Below are positions 3,887-12,222 of a DNA stretch of 36,748 nucleotides, in pieces. Positions within the stretch are counted from its first letter, which is position 1. Each line of letters opens with the position of its first letter. A program made the position numbers and the translations under genes. The DNA is taken from NCBI GenBank assembly GCA_002898875.1, contig BEIC01000004.1, forward strand, positions 1 to 36,748, in the 5' to 3' direction. The notes under the pieces were generated by a model. That model was not told the origin of the DNA, did not search any database, and saw only the letters and a list, made by a program, of their open reading frames with translations. Source of the stretch: a bacterium HR26 (lineage in GTDB: Bacteria > Chloroflexota > Chloroflexia > Thermomicrobiales > Thermomicrobiaceae).

Positions 3887-4051
3887 AGGTGAGCCGGCGT
3901 TGGTGGGTGAGCGCGGGGGGGTCAGACCCGCGCACGACGGCGCCGGCAGACCGGAAGGCATGCCAAGAGCCCAAAGCGATCGCACCTCTGCTATCATGCC
4001 ACCACCTAAACGACCTGCCATACTCGTTAGGCCTCGCAAGGGAGGATGCCG

Positions 4052-7000
4052 ATGTCAGACGGGGAACCGGCCAATGAGGCCCAGACGCTGCGCATCCGAC
4101 TGCTCGGCGGTTTTCGTGTCTCGGTTGGGTCGCGCGTAGTCGAGGATCCTGAGTGGCGGCTACGGAAGGCCAAGAGCCTGGTCAAGCTGCTCACGCTGGC
4201 GTCCGACCACCGCCTGCACCGCGAGCAGGTGATGGACCTTCTCTGGCCAGAGCTCGACCCAGACGCGGCCGCGAATAACCTCCACAAGATCCTCCACATC
4301 GCCCGGCGCGCACTCGAGCCCAACCTCGCCCCCGGTTCACCCTCAGCGTACCTCCGCCTGCAGAAGGATTGGCTCGTCCTTCAGTGCTCGGGGACGCCTT
4401 GGATTGATGCCGAGGCGTTTGAGGCCGCCGCAGCCGTCGCCCGGCGCACCCGGGATCCCGCAGATTATCGATCAGCGCTTGAGCTCTACACGGGCGACCT
4501 GCTGCCTGAGGATCGCTATGAGGAGTGGGCAGCGACCCGGCGCGATGCGTTGCGCCTCGAGTATCTCGCCCTACTTGGCGAACTCGCCCGACTGCACGAG
4601 GCACGCGGTGAGTACGGGCTCGCTATCGAGGCACTCCGGCGGATCGTGGCCGATGATCCAGCCCACGAGGAGGCACAAACAGCGCTCATGCGCCTCTATG
4701 CGCTGGCTGGCCAGCGCCACCAAGCCCTTCGCCAGTACGAGCAACTCCGAGAGGCGCTCCGGCGCGAACTCGACACGGAGCCTCATGTGACAAGCCAGCG
4801 TCTCTACCATGACATCGTGGCCGGGCGGTTCCCTGCAACACCACCGGCGATGCCTGCGCTCCTGCACGGCGATCTACCCTCCGCTCCACTCGTCGGCCGA
4901 GATGAAGAGCTCGAAGCTCTCGAGGACATCCTTGATGCGCTGTTCAGCGGGCAGGGTAGGTTCGTGCTCCTGGCAGGGGAGGCAGGCGTAGGGAAGAGTC
5001 GACTGGCAGCCGAGATCGCCGAGCGAGTCCGCCGACGTGGCGGCCACGTGCTCGTGGGCGCAAGTTACGAGCAGGAAGGGCAAGTGCCGTACGGGCCGTT
5101 CGTCGAGGCTCTGGGGCGAGTCGCCACCAGCTTGGGGCCGACGGATCTGCGTGGCATGCTCGGCGCGGCTGCCCTCCCGCTCTTCTCTCTCGCCCCGGGC
5201 GCCGCGGTCGCGCTTGCCTGGGACGCGCCACCAGCGCTGGCAGGCCCACCTGATCGCCAGCGTCTCTTCGCCGCCATCGCCGACTTCCTCGCCCGGCTGG
5301 CCGCCCAGGCCCCGGTCCTGTTCGTGCTCGACGATCTGCATTTCGCTGACGAGGCGACCCTGCAACTGCTGCACTACCTGGTTCGCACCGGGCGGGACAA
5401 GCCACTGCTCTTTCTGGGGACCTTCCGACCCGAGGAGGCCGGGCCGGCTGATCCGCTCAGGCAGTTCGTGGCCACGCTGCGCCGTGAGCGATTGGTTACC
5501 CCCTTCGAGCTTCGGCGTCTCGATGCCCGAGAGAGCGAGTTGCTCGTGGCAACACTCCTGGGCAGCGATCCTATCGATCGCGCGGTCTTCGAGACGATCT
5601 ATGGACTGGCTGAGGGAAACCCTTTCTATACCGAGGAGGCGGTGCAGGCCCTGCGTGAGCGCGGCCAACTCGAGCGTGTCGACGGACGGTGGCGGCTGCG
5701 GTCCGAAGTAGCCGCCGTGCCCGGCCCGCTGGCGGATCTCCTCGCTGCTCGTCTCGAACGGCTCCGGCCCAACGCACGTCAGGTTCTCAGACTGGCTGCG
5801 GTTGTCGGCCGGGAGATCCCGTACACGCTGCTGCGTGCGACCAGCGATCTGTCTGAGCAGGACTTGCTTGACGCCCTCGACGAGTGCCTTGCCCGGCGCG
5901 TCCTCGAAGAATCAACTGACGGCTATCGGTTTACCCACCCGCTGCAGCGCACGGCCATCTACGATGGGCTGAGCCGGGCACGGCGGGCTCACCTCCATGG
6001 GAGTGTCGCAAAGGCCCTCGAGCGGCTCTACCACAGCCAGCTAGCGGAACACGCCGAGACGCTCGCGCACCACTATAGCTTGAGCGACGTACCAGGTCGG
6101 GCCGTTCCCCATCTCGTCACAGCCGGTGATCGGGCTGCGAGTGTCTACGCGAACGAGACAGCGATGAGTTACTACCGGCGCGCCCTCGAGCTGTTGTCTG
6201 CGGCTGGCGCTCCGGCGAGCCCGTCGGTACCGGCAGCCGACCTGTGGGAGAAGATAGGTGACCTGTGGGCACTCATCGGCGAGGCCGGTCAGGACGTTGC
6301 AGCCTACCGCATGGCGGTCGCCATAATGGAGAAGGCGGCGGAGCCTGCCGTCTGCGCACGGCTTCATCGAAAGGCGGCATACGCGTGCCTGTCTCAGCAC
6401 GATAGCGCCGGGGCCGAGCGCCACCTCGGCGCAGCGGAGATGCTCTTGAGCGACCGACCGGATCCGGCTGAGCAAGGGCGGCTCGCGCGCGTACGCGCGC
6501 AGTGGTTCTGGGAGCATGGCCGCCACGCCGAGGCGCTGGAGACCGCTCAAGCGAGCCTGGAGCTGGCTGAGCGCTATGGCGCACCGGCCGACGTCGCGGC
6601 TGCCTACGAAACGATGGCACTGGTATTCCACTCTTGTGGAGAGTGGAAGCGGGGCCTGCACTATGAGATTCAGCACCTGGGGGCTGCTGCCGATCAGCCC
6701 CAACTTGCAAGCGTCTTCGATGTCCATCACTGACTGGCCGAGTATCACCTGTATGGTGACACGTCGTACGAAGAAGTCGAGGAGTACGCGCGCCGGACGC
6801 TCGACCTGGCTCTTCGGATGGGCGCGCGGCGCGCCCAGGCGCTGGCTTGTTGCCTGCTCGGCGAAACCCTCCTGCTGCGGGGCCGCTGGGACGAGGCCGC
6901 GGGGTATCTCCGACGCAGCATCGAGCTGCATCAGGCACTGGGGGCGAAGAGCGGTGAGGCGCTCACCTGGCAGCGGCTGGGCGAGCTCGCCATCTATCGA

Positions 7001-7618
7001 GGCGATGCCACCGCAGCCGACAAATGCGTGCAGCGCGGGCTGGCGCTCGCCGCTGAGGCACCGATGGCCGCCCATCTCATGGGTCGCCTCTACGCGACAG
7101 CCGCGCTCGATGCCCTGGAGCAGGGCAACCTAGCGGCGGCTGCTCGGGCGATCGGAGCGGCGAGCGCGGCTGCCGAACGCTACGGCGACTGCCCCACCTG
7201 CGGCGCACTTCTTCATCCGGTTGCCGCCGAGGTCTACGCCCGGCTCGGCGACAAGGACCGGGCGGAGAAGTGGGCACAGGCGGCCGAGCGTGTCGCCGGC
7301 CACTGGGAGAGCGGTGCCTGGCAGGCGATGGCGGAGGTGGCACACGCAGTGGTTGCGCCCAGCGAGCAGGCGGTAGCGCGCTTCGTCAGGGCTGCTCAAC
7401 TCTTCGAGCGGCTCGGCCAGCCGTTTCAGGCTGCACGCTGTCTGGCTCAGGCCGGGCTGATCCATGTTGAGCGCGGTGAGCGGGAGGAGGCCAGGGGCCG
7501 ACTCGAGCGGGCGCTGGCCATCTTCCACGAGATCGGGGCGCCCCGAGCTGCCAAGCGGGTGTACCAGGCACTGGCACGACTGCGCGCTGGTACGAGTTCT
7601 GCACACGAGGTGACCTGA
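4052..7618 (+). CDS. SARP/BTAD-AAA ATPase-TPR transcriptional regulator with in-frame TGA
   Basis: Read through one TGA at 6731-6733, this is a 1188-residue AfsR/SARP-type regulator. It has an OmpR-like winged helix (LLGGFRVSVG..., residues about 14-95), a BTAD helical domain (to about 260), an NTPase module with Walker A GEAGVGKS and Walker B-like VLFVLDDLH, and a long TPR-like C-terminal half. The stop falls at residue 894, in FDVHH-TGA-LAEYHLYGD. The same frame continues without another stop for 295 residues of normal TPR-like sequence, including a CPTC pair, so the two pieces are one gene. From memory, related regulators have Cys at this place, making selenocysteine possible (hairpin at 6742-6762). 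The alternatives are a nonsense mutation or a sequencing error, leaving an 893-residue protein. ATG 4052 has GGAGG at 4041-4045; ATG 4046 is too close to it. Confidence 0.75.
6731..6762 (+). other. In-frame TGA with SECIS-like hairpin in the regulator
   Basis: After the TGA (6731-6733), TCACC (6745-6749) pairs with GGTGA (6755-6759) around loop TGTAT. One A-C mismatch then separates GT (6742-6743) pairing with AC (6761-6762). The loop begins 16 bases after the TGA and has G as its second base, which matches the published general rule for bacterial SECIS elements (loop 16-37 nt after UGA, G in the first two loop positions). The stem is short, so this alone is not proof. Confidence 0.4.
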
Positions 7619-7645
7619 TCCGACGAGAATGAAGTCAACATGAAG

Positions 7646-7725
7646 CTTACCGCCAGGGAATGAAGTCCCCTGGTAAGTGTCAGAGAAGAGGAGCCGCCTA
7701 TGATCTGAATGAGATCGTAGGCGGC
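7646..7725 (+). promoter_or_regulatory. Tandem hairpins between regulator and small downstream gene
   Basis: Hairpin 1 pairs CCAGGG (7653-7658) with CCCTGG (7668-7673), extended by CTTA/TAAG (7646-7649, 7674-7677). Hairpin 2 is a 14-bp stem with one G-T pair: GCCGCCTATGATCT (7693-7706) with the arm at 7712-7725, loop GAATG. No T-run follows. It ends only about 10 bases before the Shine-Dalgarno TGGAGG (7736-7741) of the next gene. It may be a processing or translation-control element, or a terminator without U-tract. Confidence 0.5.
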
Positions 7726-7749
7726 GTCCAGTTCTTGGAGGCTGCATCG

Positions 7750-7986
7750 ATGGCAAGGTCATATGGTTCGTTTATCGTGCGCTATTGGCTCCTCGATGGC
7801 AACCAAGAGCGCATCGAGATCGAGCACATGCAGACTGGGGACCGGGTGCGCGTCGCCTCGCTCGACGAAGGAGTCGCTTGGATAACAGCACGGGTACGCC
7901 GGCCGGCGAGTGGCGGTGGTCGGGCACCTCCTGACACCACAGCGCAGGGAGAGTCCAGGGAGAAGGGTCGTCAACCGTGCGTGTAG
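7750..7986 (+). CDS. Small hypothetical protein in the selenoprotein cluster
   Basis: A 78-residue protein of unknown function, with no Cys except near the C-terminus and no membrane segment. The first 45 residues look like a compact beta-rich domain (SFIVRYWLLDGNQERIEIEHMQTGDRVRV), and the tail is low-complexity and charged. ATG 7750 is preceded by TGGAGG at 7736-7741. The frame is open upstream to 7660, but that part overlaps the hairpins and lacks a start signal. It ends 12 bases before the earliest start of the thioredoxin-like selenoprotein gene, so co-transcription is likely. Confidence 0.6.
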   Translation: MARSYGSFIVRYWLLDGNQERIEIEHMQTGDRVRVASLDEGVAWITARVRRPASGGGRAPPDTTAQGESREKGRQPCV

Positions 7987-7998
7987 GTCAGCTCAGCC

Positions 7999-8520
7999 AT
8001 GGGGGTGTGCGTGGTGGAAGCACTCGCGTATCAGATAGCTCATCAGCCGATGATCGGCGAGCTTGCGCCAGCGTTCAGCCTGCTGGATGTGCGTGGCAAG
8101 CTCCATTCACTCGCTGACCAGCGAGGTAAGTTCGTTGTGATCCACTTTGGCACGAGCTGGTGACCATTCTGCAATGCGGAGGCTCCGCATCTCAATGCAG
8201 TGCAACAGCACTACCAGGACCGCGCGGTGGAGGTGGTCGTGATCAATGTGAAGGAGTCCAGGACGAAGGCGGCGCGATGGGGTCGTGCCCTGGGTTTCAC
8301 CTGCCCAGTGCTCCTCGATCTCGACGGTCAGGTGGCCGTGAGTTACGCGCCAGAGGGGGTGTTGCCCGACCTACCACGTGATCAAATACCGATCGCATCG
8401 AACCTCATCATCGATCGCGAGGGTCGGATTCAGTTTTACTCGCTCCTGGACTCGGTTCACTTCGATGCCCGGCTCGTGGCGCTGCGCGCCCGGCTCGAAG
8501 AGCTACTGGCAACGGGGTAG
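7999..8520 (+). CDS. Thioredoxin-fold (TlpA/redoxin-like) selenoprotein, TGA = Sec55
   Basis: Predicted 173-residue thiol/selenol oxidoreductase of the TlpA/AhpC-TSA-like superfamily. The frame is interrupted by one TGA at 8161-8163, exactly at the first position of the redox motif: VIHFGTSW-TGA-PFCNAEAPHL, i.e. U55-P-F-C58 instead of CxxC. Both sides are good thioredoxin-fold sequence: upstream GELAPAFSLLDVRGKLHSL, downstream VVVINVKE, a possible cis-Pro region (DQIPIASNLIIDREGRIQFY) and a final helix. A strong hairpin follows the TGA at the right distance. With standard decoding, the product would end at residue 54, before the resolving Cys. There is no signal peptide. The start is uncertain: ATG 7999, or GTG 8011/8014 behind GGGGGTG. 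The iodothyronine-deiodinase-like group (FGSxTUPPF) is a more distant possibility. Confidence 0.82.
8161..8200 (+). other. Selenocysteine TGA and bacterial SECIS-like hairpin
   Basis: The TGA (8161-8163) is followed by a two-part stem. The lower stem is CTGCA (8169-8173) with TGCAG (8196-8200). The upper stem is a perfect 7-bp ATGCGGA (8174-8180) with TCCGCAT (8184-8190). The apical loop is GGC (8181-8183), and a 5-base bulge CTCAA lies on the 3' side. The loop starts 17 bases after the TGA and begins with G. Spacing and loop are close to the fdhF-type bacterial SECIS that SelB recognises. Confidence 0.78.
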
Positions 8521-8707
8521 GTAGGCTGGCCTGCGTTACCGTGGGAGGTATGCGGATCGGCCACGCCCCGACCCGCGCTGACACGATACCAACCTCGACG
8601 CGCTGGAGGGAGGTGAGAAGGGTGATGCTGGCGACCTGATTGATCCGCGCTGAGCTCTATCGAGAGGTTACCGACTTCGTAATTGAACATCAAGAAGGAG
8701 GCCAAAC

Positions 8708-9310
8708 ATGGCGTACACACTGGAAGGACGACTGCTCGAGGTGTGTACCTGCAACGTCATCTGCCCATGCTGGGTCGGCGAGGATCCCGATGGCGGTACC
8801 TGCGACGGGGTGATCGCTTGGCACATTGACCGGGGCGAGATCAACGGCGGGGACGTCTCGAACCGCACCATCGCGGTAGCGGCGCATATCCCCGGCAACG
8901 TGCTCAAGGGGAACTGGCGAGCAGCCGTGTACCTGGACGAGCGGGCAACGCCAGAGCAGGAGGATGCAATCCTGGCTGTCTGGACGGGCAAGCTGGGTGG
9001 ACCGGTAGCTGACCTCGTCCAGTTGGTGGGGGAGATCGCCGGCCTGGAGCGGGTGCCGATCTTGTTCGATGTTGAGGATGGTAAAGGCCGGCTGGCTATT
9101 GGCGCGGCCGTGGAGGCAGAGCTGATGCCGCTGCAAGGGGCGACTGGTCAGCCGACGACGTTGCACGACAGCGTGTTCTCGACCATCCCGGGCTCGCCCG
9201 CGTACGTGAGCAAGGCGTCGACCTATCGGCTGAACGCCCCCAACTATGGGTTCACCATCGACCTGCAGGGCCACAACGCGGTTCAGGGAACCTTCCGCTT
9301 TGAAGCGTAA
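8708..9310 (+). CDS. DUF1326 domain-containing protein
   Basis: A 200-residue soluble protein recognised as DUF1326 (COG5588-like) from the N-terminal cysteine cluster LEVCTCNVICPCWVGEDP and the following CDGVIAWHIDRGEI segment. The five clustered Cys are what one would expect of a metal- or thiol-handling protein, but no activity is established. The ATG is supported by AAGGAGG at 8695-8701. It is followed by the DUF2182 gene, its common neighbour. The 187-bp gap after the selenoprotein gene shows no other gene; a GGAGGGAGGTG stretch near 8605 could be the ribosome site of an unrecognised short peptide. Confidence 0.85.
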   Translation: MAYTLEGRLLEVCTCNVICPCWVGEDPDGGTCDGVIAWHIDRGEINGGDVSNRTIAVAAHIPGNVLKGNWRAAVYLDERATPEQEDAILAVWTGKLGGPVADLVQLVGEIAGLERVPILFDVEDGKGRLAIGAAVEAELMPLQGATGQPTTLHDSVFSTIPGSPAYVSKASTYRLNAPNYGFTIDLQGHNAVQGTFRFEA

Positions 9311-9320
9311 GCACGGCTGA

Positions 9321-9371
9321 GGGTCGGGTATCCAGGGCGGAGAAGTAACGCTTGGCCCGGATACTCGACCC
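9321..9371 (+). repeat. Long hairpin between DUF1326 and DUF2182 genes
   Basis: GGGTCGGGTATCC (9321-9333) pairs with GGATACTCGACCC (9359-9371) over 13 bp with one G-T pair; the first four loop bases can extend it (GGGC with GCCC). There is no T-tract. It ends 11 bases before the GGAGGTG ribosome site of the next gene, so it may set differential expression or mRNA stability within the operon. Confidence 0.55.
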
Positions 9372-9395
9372 CCTCCGCCGATGGAGGTGTGGCCC

Positions 9396-10175
9396 ATGAT
9401 GCCTATCGCCGCGCGTGAGCGCGCCGCCGCCGAACGAAGACTGTTTCCGCTACTGCTCGGGGCGCTCATCGTCCTGGCGTGGTTGGTGCTCGCAGTCTGG
9501 GGCCGCTCGCCCTACAGCCGCTATCTGAGCCACCACGAGCTGGCTGAGGTGCCGGAAAGTAGCCTGCTCTTACTCGTCTTCATCGGGGGCTGGCTGCTGA
9601 TGACCGCCGCGATGATGCTGCCGACGAGCCTGCCGCTGGTCCTGCTGTTTCGGCGACTCACGCGCGCACGTCCGGACAGCGGTCGCCTGATGCTCTTGCT
9701 CCTAACGGGCTACCTCGGCGCCTGGACTGGTTTCGGGTTGCTGGTCGCTGTCGGGGACGGATTTCTGCACCGGCTCGTCGAGCACAGTACCTGGCTGGAA
9801 GCCAATGCGCGCCTGTTGAGCACGGCCACACTGGCGCTTGCGGGGATCTACCAGTTCACTCCGCTCAAGTACCACTGCCTGGACAAATGCCGCTCGCCGT
9901 TCAGCTTTCTCTCGGAGTATTGGCGTGGTCGCGACGCGGCGCTGCAGGCGGTGCGGCTGGGCGCACACCACGGGGCGTATTGCGTGGGCTGCTGCTGGTC
10001 GCTCATGTTGGTGATATTCGCTGTCGGCGTGGGCAACCTGGGGTGGATGCTGCTGCTCGCGGCGGTGATGGGCGCCGAGAAGAACCTCTCCTGGGGACGC
10101 CGGCTCAGCGCACCCCTAGGGATCGTCTTGATCGCCTCGGGAGCGGTGACGGCCTACCAGACCGGTCTTCCTTGA
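9396..10175 (+). CDS. DUF2182 predicted metal-binding integral membrane protein
   Basis: A 259-residue multi-pass membrane protein of the DUF2182 (COG5486-like) family. An N-terminal hydrophobic helix (LLGALIVLAWLVLAVWG) is followed by about six more. Diagnostic motifs are MTAAMMLPTSLPLV, YQFTPLKYHCLDKCRSP (CxxxC) and HHGAYCVGCCWSLM (CVGCC), then GAEKN in the last third. These Cys/His motifs at membrane edges suggest metal or thiol chemistry, but the function is unknown. Start ATG 9396 is chosen because GGAGGTG (9383-9389) lies 6 bases upstream; the upstream in-frame ATG at 9381 overlaps that site. It follows DUF1326, as in many genomes. Confidence 0.85.
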   Translation: MMPIAARERAAAERRLFPLLLGALIVLAWLVLAVWGRSPYSRYLSHHELAEVPESSLLLLVFIGGWLLMTAAMMLPTSLPLVLLFRRLTRARPDSGRLMLLLLTGYLGAWTGFGLLVAVGDGFLHRLVEHSTWLEANARLLSTATLALAGIYQFTPLKYHCLDKCRSPFSFLSEYWRGRDAALQAVRLGAHHGAYCVGCCWSLMLVIFAVGVGNLGWMLLLAAVMGAEKNLSWGRRLSAPLGIVLIASGAVTAYQTGLP

Positions 10176-10226
10176 GAACGGGTAGGCCAGCGACGTCCCG
10201 CTCGGCTCAATAAACTGGGGGTGACC

Positions 10227-10652
10227 ATGAATGCAGGTGAGGCGTCTAACGAAGTCCTCCAGGTGCTACCGTCTGCGCCGGTGGAGGTACGAACAGGTGG
10301 GACAGCCGAGGCGCGGGTGACCGTGCTGGTGAAGGATGGCTACCATGTGCAGGCCAACCCAGCGAGCGGGGATTTCCTGGTGCCGCTCCGCCTGGAGTTG
10401 AGACCGCAGGACGGAGTGCGACCGGGTAGGCCGATCTACCCGCCCGGGCAGCCGTACCGCCTGCCGGGGATGGAGAGCGACTGGATGACCTATGAAGGGC
10501 GCATCGAGATCGTCGTTCCACTCGTCGCTGACGCCTCCGCACGGAGGGGAGTGCGCTGCCTGGCGGGGGTGCTCCACTACCAGGCATGCGACGCGCGAAC
10601 CTGCCTCTTCCCGGCGTCGGTGCCTGTCAACCTCACGGTGAAGGTGGTCTGA
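10227..10652 (+). CDS. DsbD-alpha-like thiol:disulfide interchange domain protein
   Basis: A 141-residue stand-alone immunoglobulin-like domain resembling the N-terminal (alpha) domain of DsbD/ScsB. Features are KDGYHVQANPASGDFLVPLRLEL, YPPGQPYRLPG, an edge strand with IEIVVPL, and LHYQACDARTCLFPASVPVNL, which contains the Cys pair (C-x4-C) that in DsbD passes electrons to periplasmic partners. No signal peptide or membrane segment is seen from ATG 10227 (or GTG 10221), which is odd for a domain that normally works outside the cytoplasm. It is the last gene of the redox cluster. A thiol-relay role with the upstream selenoprotein is inferred from co-location only. Confidence 0.75.
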   Translation: MNAGEASNEVLQVLPSAPVEVRTGGTAEARVTVLVKDGYHVQANPASGDFLVPLRLELRPQDGVRPGRPIYPPGQPYRLPGMESDWMTYEGRIEIVVPLVADASARRGVRCLAGVLHYQACDARTCLFPASVPVNLTVKVV

Positions 10653-10741: not shown

Positions 10742-10791
10742 ATCAGGCTGAGCAAGAAATACTTGACACGGCCTGATCCTGATGCTATGTT
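10738..10791 (+). promoter_or_regulatory. metX promoter with 10-bp inverted repeat across the -35
   Basis: The -35 TTGACA (10763-10768) and -10 TATGTT (10786-10791) are 17 bases apart and point at the SAM riboswitch. CAGGATCAGG (10738-10747) and its exact reverse complement CCTGATCCTG (10772-10781) lie either side of the -35, the second inside the spacer. Arm-to-arm distance is 34 bp, roughly three helical turns, as expected of an operator for a dimeric repressor. Confidence 0.7.
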
Positions 10792-10817: not shown

Positions 10818-10935
10818 GCGCTCATCCAGAGTGGTGGAGGGAACGGCCCGAAGAAGCCCGGCAACCAGCGCGCACGCGCCAGGTGCCAATGCCGGCGGAG
10901 CGAGGCTCCGCACGATGAGCGCGGTAAGACAGAAG
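10818..10935 (+). promoter_or_regulatory. SAM-I (S-box) riboswitch upstream of metX
   Basis: The S-box core is recognisable. P1 is GCGCTCAT (10818-10825) with ATGAGCGC (10915-10922). Then come CAGAGTGGTGGAGGGA, GGCCCGAAGAAGCCCGGCAACC-like segments (conserved P2/kink-turn region, 10845-10866) and GGTGCCAATGCC (P3-P4 region, 10882-10893). The adjacent terminator means SAM binding should switch off transcription of the methionine gene metX. Confidence 0.9.
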
Positions 10936-10936
10936 C

Positions 10937-10961
10937 CCTCCACCGTGCGTGGAGGTTTTTT
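10937..10961 (+). terminator. Expression-platform terminator of the metX SAM riboswitch
   Basis: CCTCCAC (10937-10943) pairs with GTGGAGG (10949-10955), loop CGTGC, followed by TTTTTT (10956-10961). The 5' arm plus one base (10936-10943) is also the exact complement of GTGGAGGG at 10834-10841 in the aptamer's P2 region, giving a possible antiterminator when SAM is absent. Confidence 0.9.
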
Positions 10962-11106: not shown

Positions 11107-12222
11107 ATGACCACAACCACCGCCCCATGTACTGTCCAGATCGCCCGGATCGCGACGCCGGAGCACCCGTTCATCACCGAGCACGGAGCCGTGCTCCCGG
11201 TCGTCGAGATCGCCTACGAGACCTGGGGCACGCTGAGCCCGCAGCGCGACAACGTCGTCCTGATCGCCCACGCGCTGACCGGCAGCAGCCACGTGACACC
11301 GCACTTCCCTGGCGATGCCCCCGGCTGGTGGGACCCGATGGTCGGATCGGGCTGCCCCATCGACACCGACCGCTACTTCGTAATCTGTCCGAACATGCTC
11401 GGGAGTTGCTACGGCTCCACCGGCCCGCGCTCGATCGACCCGGCGACCGGCCGCCGCTACAACCTCCGCTTCCCGCACATCACTGTCCGCGATATTGTCG
11501 CCACGCAAGCCCGGCTGCTCGACCAGCTCGGCATTGAGCGGCTACACGCAGTGCTCGGCGGCTCGCTCGGCGGGATGCAGGCGCTGGAGTGGGCAGCGAT
11601 GTTCCCCGAGCGTGTGGAGCGCGTCATCCCAATCGCCGTCGGCGGCCGCTTCAGCGATCAAGGCATCGCCTACAACGAGGTGCAGCGGCGGGCCATTATG
11701 CTCGACCCGGCCTGGAAGAACGGCGAGTACGAGGACGGCGAGGGCCCGGCAACCGGCCTGGCCATCGCCCGGATGCTGGGCGTAATCACCTACCAGTCCG
11801 ACGAGCTGATGACTGCCCGCTTCAACCGGCGTGAGGAGGCCCGCTACACCGCCTGGCCGGAATTCCTCTGCCGCTACGATGTCGAGGGCTACCTGCACTA
11901 CCAGGGCGAGAAGCTGGTACGTCGCTTCGACGCTAACAGCTACCTGTACCTCACCCGGGCCATGGACTCGCACGACCTGGGGCGTGGACGCGGCAGCTAC
12001 GAGGCGGGCCTAGCCCGGATCCGTGCTCGCACGCTCGCCATCGGCATCCGCTCGGACATCCTCTTCTGGCCGGCCCAGGTGCGCGACCTGGTCGAGCGGC
12101 TGCGGCGGTTGGGGAAGGAGGCCGAGTACTGGGAGCTCGATTCGCCCAACGGGCACGACGCCTTCCTCAAGGACTTCGCCCAGATCGGCCCGGTGATCCG
12201 GGAGTTCCTCGACCGGCCGTAA
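11107..12222 (+). CDS. metX: Homoserine O-acetyltransferase
   Basis: Alpha/beta-hydrolase enzyme that acylates homoserine (acetyl-CoA or succinyl-CoA; the donor cannot be decided here) at the branch to methionine. It has 371 residues, the usual length. Visible signatures are ALTGSSH (oxyanion region), nucleophile elbow GGSLGGMQALEW, and the C-terminal NGHDAFL with the catalytic His; the catalytic Asp is expected near SDILFWP. The ATG is preceded by GGAGGGAG at 11094-11101. It is controlled by the SAM riboswitch at 10818-10961, consistent with end-product repression, and lies convergent with hom 16 bases downstream. Confidence 0.93.
   Translation: MTTTTAPCTVQIARIATPEHPFITEHGAVLPVVEIAYETWGTLSPQRDNVVLIAHALTGSSHVTPHFPGDAPGWWDPMVGSGCPIDTDRYFVICPNMLGSCYGSTGPRSIDPATGRRYNLRFPHITVRDIVATQARLLDQLGIERLHAVLGGSLGGMQALEWAAMFPERVERVIPIAVGGRFSDQGIAYNEVQRRAIMLDPAWKNGEYEDGEGPATGLAIARMLGVITYQSDELMTARFNRREEARYTAWPEFLCRYDVEGYLHYQGEKLVRRFDANSYLYLTRAMDSHDLGRGRGSYEAGLARIRARTLAIGIRSDILFWPAQVRDLVERLRRLGKEAEYWELDSPNGHDAFLKDFAQIGPVIREFLDRP

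Follow-up and report, generated by a model that had tools for sequence, protein, structure and literature searches.

The DNA analysed here (the window) is a 36,748-nucleotide (nt) stretch, positions 1 to 36,748 of contig BEIC01000004.1 (G000:C4), from the genome assembly of bacterium HR26, a member of the Thermomicrobiaceae (Chloroflexota; GCA_002898875.1, here G000; 81% complete). Open reading frames (ORFs) and Pfam matches place six genes on its + strand between positions 4046 and 10652, with intergenic gaps of about 12 to 190 nt, and so bear out the first-pass annotation, made from the letters alone, that had described a cluster of one orientation with short gaps. The first gene codes for a SARP/STAND-type regulator with an in-frame TGA, which there is strong reason to read as selenocysteine (Sec). 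This residue, more than the thiol relay also proposed for the cluster, is its best supported and newest part. The features are as follows.

4046..7618, + strand, SARP/STAND-type regulator, about 1190 residues with TGA read as Sec (translation, Pfam)
6731..6733, + strand, in-frame TGA of the regulator, proposed Sec896, motif FDVHHULAEYHLYGD (column of 14 TGA and 12 Cys)
6739..6766, + strand, proposed Sec insertion sequence (SECIS) of the regulator, loop UGUAU, 16 nt after the TGA, -9.8 kcal/mol
7190..7201, + strand, CxxC of the regulator, Cys1049 and Cys1052 (family-wide invariance)
7660..7986, + strand, small ORF, 108 residues or shorter, without known family (no Pfam or NCBIfam match)
7999..8520, + strand, TlpA/ResA-like thioredoxin, UxxC in TSWUPFC (AhpC-TSA/thioredoxin, Pfam 6.3e-23)
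8161..8163, + strand, in-frame TGA of TlpA, proposed Sec at the first active-site position (TSWUPFC)
8169..8200, + strand, proposed SECIS of TlpA, loop GGC, 17 nt after the TGA, -13.5 kcal/mol
8708..9310, + strand, DUF1326 protein (Pfam 5.6e-55)
9381..10175, + strand, DUF2182/PpoB2 membrane protein, PF09948 (Pfam 6.7e-66)
10221..10652, + strand, DsbD_N (nDsbD-like) protein with the Cys pair CDARTC (Pfam 6.3e-08)

The regulator consists of a BTAD domain (residues 121-257, 3.4e-17), an AAA_16 domain (281-456, 1.7e-31) and a TPR array that runs to the C-terminus and whose predicted fold matches domain III of MalT (1hz4, TM score 0.62 by target length). The same BTAD-AAA_16-TPR order is found in SARP/AfsR-type regulators, and the TPR fold resembles that of MalT-like sensors; AfsR itself is a weak NCBIfam match (1.1e-09), far below its cut-off. 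BTAD (PF03704) is recognized as well in the relatives L080 (6.6e-22) and L081 (1e-09). What sets the family apart from SARP/AfsR regulators is a TGA-encoded Sec with a hairpin of its own, a CxxC kept throughout the family, and metal or thiol genes rather than antibiotic genes nearby.

Three family searches in genomes of the window's phylum yielded 26 regulator loci, two of which (L135 and L136) are near-identical. With A1, a profile of the TGA region built on one Cys and three Sec rows, members came up in 15 of the 400 phylum genomes searched (E <= 1e-20) and in 9 of 396 from the class of genome G264 (E <= 1e-30; two of these nine shared with the phylum search); an earlier class search with a regulator fragment had found members in 4 of 158 genomes. 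At the column of the window's TGA, 14 loci have TGA, 12 have Cys, and no other residue occurs. The regulator of G042, for example, is 38% identical over 1141 columns and has its TGA at the same residue, and that of G083, 27% identical, has Cys there. The DxHxU motif is present in the window and in most rows, His1010 is invariant in a 15-row alignment, and of the 24 loci that reach as far as the CxxC, 153 residues past Sec896, 23 keep it. Only L171 (G768:C4) does not: this Sec regulator copy has lost the CxxC and carries two extra TGAs, the result of a frameshift, an assembly error or a decaying gene. In a tree of 24 rows, with the partial rows L138 and L139 excluded and the TGA column masked, five changes between Sec and Cys are required, at least three of them on well-supported branches.

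It is very improbable that the regulator's TGA is a true stop, giving an 895-residue regulator and a separate 266-residue TPR protein from 6818, or else a nonsense mutation or an assembly error. An ATG does lie 84 nt past the TGA, L171 carries its further TGAs, and generic folding behind the regulator TGA is unremarkable. Nonetheless, TGA stands at the same codon in loci of many genera, all the others having Cys. Moreover, homology is continuous across the TGA at 36-54% identity, including the 28 codons up to the next ATG, so that the stretch from TGA to ATG is conserved as protein, and in Cys members it is translated. Finally, a conserved hairpin is confined to the TGA genes and one apparent fossil.

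That hairpin, UAUCACC-UGUAY-GGUGA, lies 16 nt after the TGA and is found in all 14 TGA regulators and in 1 of the 12 Cys regulators. Bacterial SECIS elements, by the rules given in PMC13188914, have a loop of 3-9 nt with a G within its first two positions, lie 16-37 nt past the TGA and fold at <= -7.5 kcal/mol. Such elements are present in all seven Sec regulators tested and in both Sec TlpA genes, and in the seven regulators the loop is UGUAU or UGUAC at exactly 16 nt past the TGA. Under each gene's own codon usage, the joint probability of the hairpin codons is 0.0005-0.005 per gene (seven genes; the target was picked post hoc). Unlike the generic rules, the conserved hairpin separates Sec from Cys regulators at the level of sequence, and the earlier call of the regulator as 'possible Sec' thus holds on both the TGA/Cys column and the hairpin. 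The one Cys regulator with a Sec-type hairpin, L170:7639-8643 (G768:C6, - strand; codon TGT), shares its genome with the TGA copy L171. Because it retains the hairpin and because a Sec copy stands in the same genome, it is apparently a recent change from Sec to Cys with a fossil SECIS.

The machinery of Sec insertion is in keeping with this reading. tRNA-Sec was found in all seven Sec-regulator genomes tested, that of the window included, and SelA in six of the seven, again including the window's own genome, the exception being G042 (75% complete). SelB matches above the cut-off were found in all six other Sec-regulator genomes searched, among them the sister genome G116. Most genomes with a Cys member also have the Sec machinery, and therefore its presence alone does not explain the Sec members.

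Some results weigh against Sec in the regulator and against what is built on it below. The generic SECIS rules are unspecific: 8 of 11 Cys regulators tested also pass them, with unrelated hairpins, for which reason these rules were dropped as proof of Sec. Shuffled versions of the stretch behind the regulator's TGA fold as well as the stretch itself (z = 0.40). The SelB search of the window's own assembly, 81% complete as stated, found none; the best candidate there proved by translation to be initiation factor IF-2. In the predicted structure, Sec896 and the CxxC lie about eight helices apart, and the pLDDT (model confidence) around Sec896 is only 51-76. Two further points on this side concern the neighbouring genes and are taken up with them.

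The second in-frame TGA, in the TlpA gene, is well supported as Sec by sequence comparison. Its column holds two TGA codons (the window and its sister) and two Cys codons (TGC and TGT, in the Rhodothermota loci L044 and L045, 54-56% identical). Both TGA genes, but neither of the Cys genes, have a hairpin at the expected distance, and the stretch after the window's TGA gives z = -1.51 against shuffles. This Sec TlpA joins the UxxC redoxin and TlpA selenoproteins already catalogued in PMC13188914. A widespread Sec TlpA family was considered and rejected: at E <= 1e-30, 1 of 400 phylum genomes had a match, and in the class search of 158 genomes only G000 and G116 gave a near-identical TGA match, the rest being distant thioredoxins with no TGA in the match.

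The DsbD_N protein (PF11412, 33.1 bits against a cut-off of 25) appears to be the partner of TlpA. In both L044 and L045 the gene after TlpA codes for a DsbD_N protein 34-48% identical to that of the window, and because the two genes adjoin in both loci, TlpA and DsbD_N are taken as a real pair, which, from this gene order, DUF1326-DUF2182 seems to have joined or left. The window's DsbD_N protein (143 residues) has no export signal and no membrane domain within the protein, and the N-terminal segment of the window's TlpA is without strong hydrophobicity; the Rhodothermota TlpA and DsbD_N proteins, unlike these, start with export-type segments. On this difference, the pair is probably cytosolic in the window's lineage. 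Since neither a periplasmic location nor a membrane domain is indicated, the protein is not classed as DsbD. The window thioredoxin shares fold family and active site with TlpA/ResA and the UxxC redoxins, but differs in having no export signal, and the nDsbD-like partner nearby has none either.

A relative of the cluster lies in a Thermomicrobiaceae metagenome-assembled genome (JADBJL010000113.1; locus L043, sister genome G116). There all six genes and both TGAs are kept, the proteins are 86-97% identical to those of the window (the small ORF 86%), and the 53 nt around the regulator's TGA show no differences. In the genome searches run here, the complete six-gene set was found in the window's genome and this one sister genome only. 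Thus, of the co-location predicted in the first-pass annotation, two parts recur elsewhere, namely a STAND-type regulator with DUF1326 and DUF2182, and TlpA with DsbD_N in Rhodothermota, whereas the full set does not go beyond the sister pair. The genes might instead form two unrelated neighbouring transcripts, regulator-small ORF-TlpA and DUF1326-DUF2182-DsbD_N, split at the 187-nt gap (8521-8707), the part of the cluster that is least alike in the two sisters (58% with indels). We consider this unlikely: no terminator-like site was found in the gap (in a weak scan, the site count over the whole stretch being at shuffle level), TlpA and DsbD_N, which flank the gap here, adjoin each other in Rhodothermota, and G264 has regulator, DUF2182 and DUF1326 in one row.

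Downstream, an S-adenosylmethionine (SAM) riboswitch (RF00162, 83 bits) at 10819-10921 precedes an alpha/beta hydrolase gene (11107-12222), by eye probably a homoserine acetyltransferase. A promoter-like site at 10763 and a terminator-like stem at 10937-10955 lie around the riboswitch. The riboswitch marks the end of the cluster.

Neither DUF1326 nor DUF2182 had been credited with a known function in the first-pass annotation. For DUF2182 this was wrong: PF09948, matched at 222.2 bits against a gathering score of 28.7, carries the name PpoB2, 'Copper chaperone', in current Pfam, and PMC2855505 assigns PpoB2 to copper transfer, supplying copper to tyrosinase. Nine residues of the window's protein (M74, M78, M79, C166, C170, H197, C201, C204 and C205) are invariant over 15 rows. 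The family and its invariant metal-type residues are shared with PpoB2/COG5486 of Marinomonas mediterranea, although no tyrosinase or other oxidase was seen in the window cluster, and DUF2182 is here paired with DUF1326. In DUF1326, five cysteines (C13, C15, C19, C21 and C32) are invariant over 18 rows, a nineteenth (L097) having been dropped for an internal stop. Its predicted fold resembles acetoacetate decarboxylase (pLDDT 91.6; best Z 10.5, root-mean-square deviation 3.7 over 160 residues), with most of the Cys cluster placed just past the first strand in the model. The fold match pointed to no function, a sequence search of the PDB returned nothing at E <= 1, and a text search of mostly non-subscription literature found no paper with the words DUF2182 or DUF1326.

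The two families are often neighbours. Among 12 DUF1326 loci (L085-L096; neighbours judged by eye), BLAST places DUF2182 adjacent in nine, and eight of these nine have a large AAA/NB-ARC-type regulator no more than about 3 kb away. No large regulator was seen by eye in the three loci without a DUF2182 match. The pair is also present in L097-L099. Other STAND regulators beside the pair were examined as candidate Sec proteins and rejected, as they belong to different subfamilies and show no convincing Sec. Within the genus of the window's organism, the DUF1326 gene of genome G115 (L097:8223-8816) is interrupted by a TAG stop, and no Sec thioredoxin and no Sec regulator were found in that genome.

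What lies behind the regulators is more varied. OsmC (PF02566), a Sec-containing arsenite methyltransferase (ArsM), or both follow 9 of the 14 Sec regulators on the same strand: both in L080, L127, L131, L164, L165, L167 and L171, only the methyltransferase in L166, and only OsmC in L168. Each of the eight methyltransferase genes carries an in-frame TGA whose setting is UxxG, like that of selenoprotein ArsM, which is not itself in the window's cluster. These TGA-bearing ArsM-like genes (L080:8101-8970, L127:9865-10653, L131:6459-7271 and those of five other loci), with the motifs LWTGUIAGALL, LWSGUIAGALL or AGULGG, would be shortened by ordinary gene calling; for one fragment, cut at its TGA, the best NCBIfam matches are ArsM_AhpD_UU, MTase_UXPK_star and PRK11873, all below cut-off. 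DUF1326 and DUF2182 stand behind the Sec regulator in three loci, namely the window, L043 and G264 (L126), the last with a small membrane-type gene and then DUF2182 and DUF1326. Divergent from the regulator of G264 are, by eye, ArsR-like and heavy-metal P-type ATPase-like genes. L129 and L169 are Sec loci that run out at a contig end or close to one.

The Cys members L132, L133, L136, L138 and L139 are short regulators (BTAD and TPR, no AAA seen) with rhodanese and molybdopterin oxidoreductase genes on the opposite strand. Such genes adjoin 5 of the 12 Cys members and, to the detriment of a metal-based interpretation, point to sulfur. The other point held over from above is that the downstream genes vary by lineage, so that a signal common to the family can only be inferred.

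The reading we favour, at slightly better than even confidence, is that the six genes form a selenium-dependent cassette that responds to thiol stress or to thiophilic metal(loid)s, under a selenoprotein activator encoded by the first of them. With the same limited confidence, its regulator would belong to a family of Sec transcription factors, spread across the window's phylum, in which Sec and the CxxC do the sensing and the STAND/SARP activator that contains them controls cassettes for the detoxification of thiophilic metal(loid)s, often themselves encoding selenoproteins. The sensing site would comprise Sec896, the CxxC pair and the nearby invariant His. A thiophilic ion (As(III), Cu(I) or Hg(II)), or an oxidant or persulfide, would react there and release the STAND switch, upon which BTAD would activate the genes behind the regulator. 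A metal(loid) or thiol-oxidant sensor is proposed because the common neighbours (ArsM, OsmC, the PpoB2-type protein, rhodanese and the UxxC thioredoxin) share such chemistry. In most Sec members the targets would be OsmC and the selenoprotein ArsM. In the window's lineage and G264 they would be DUF1326 and DUF2182, the latter being a PpoB2-like handler of metal at the membrane, its core rich in Cys, Met and His. In the window's cassette, the cytosolic UxxC thioredoxin and the nDsbD-like protein may keep the cysteines of DUF1326 and DUF2182 reduced. We infer both the signal and this thiol relay from gene content. The selenium dependence and the thiol or metal theme of the first-pass annotation are thereby supported; its placing of the whole system at the membrane is doubtful, given that TlpA and DsbD_N are without export signals.

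It is possible, though we are inclined to doubt it, that the Sec/CxxC site senses redox state or sulfane sulfur (peroxide, persulfide or organic hydroperoxide) instead of metal ions, in which case thiol repair would be the task of the genes downstream. The OsmC neighbours, the window's UxxC thioredoxin and DsbD_N, and the rhodanese and molybdopterin oxidoreductase of the Cys members are all consistent with it, but OsmC and rhodanese could serve redox or metal(loid) chemistry alike, and Sec-ArsM in 8 of the 14 Sec loci, PpoB2-type DUF2182 in three, and the ArsR-like and P-type ATPase genes of G264 favour metal(loid)s. In the metal(loid) or thiol reading, translation would stop at 895 residues if no Sec can be made, and the output of the regulator would also track selenium. 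That Sec acts mainly as such a supply switch, giving a full-length, active regulator only at ample selenium and without any sensing chemistry, seems decidedly improbable. A stop at 895 would indeed cost the TPR array about 295 residues, and other selenoproteins (Sec TlpA and Sec ArsM) occur in the downstream cassettes; however, 12 of the 26 relatives have Cys in place of Sec, alongside the invariant His and CxxC, and a pure read-through switch needs neither.

Clusters that join several selenoproteins around metal(loid) or redox chemistry have been described. The SAO and Tso operons (PMC13188914) are of this kind, but they hold enzymes, transporters and binding proteins, and their gene content is unlike that of the window. 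Likewise, the 119 prokaryotic selenoprotein families of that 2026 review are enzymes, transporters, and redox and metal-binding proteins. Its Table 1 has no DNA-binding activator, whether SARP, STAND or of another kind; by name, 'Putative regulatory protein, FmdB family' comes closest. The word 'transcription' occurs once in the paper, in a reference. The methyltransferases described above differ in setting from the known selenoprotein ArsM in that they adjoin a selenoprotein regulator. Phrase searches (such as 'selenoprotein transcription factor') found no paper; they covered mostly non-subscription literature, which leaves absence from print unproven.

Sec is otherwise known almost only from enzymes, and hence its presence in a regulator is the surprise. 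OxyR and ArsR are thiol sensors, and if the reading favoured here is true, Sec in a transcriptional activator would be their selenol-based counterpart. Regulators of this family would then be annotated as truncated at their TGA, DUF1326 and the DUF1326-DUF2182 pair would gain a testable role, and the supply of selenium would be linked directly to transcription.

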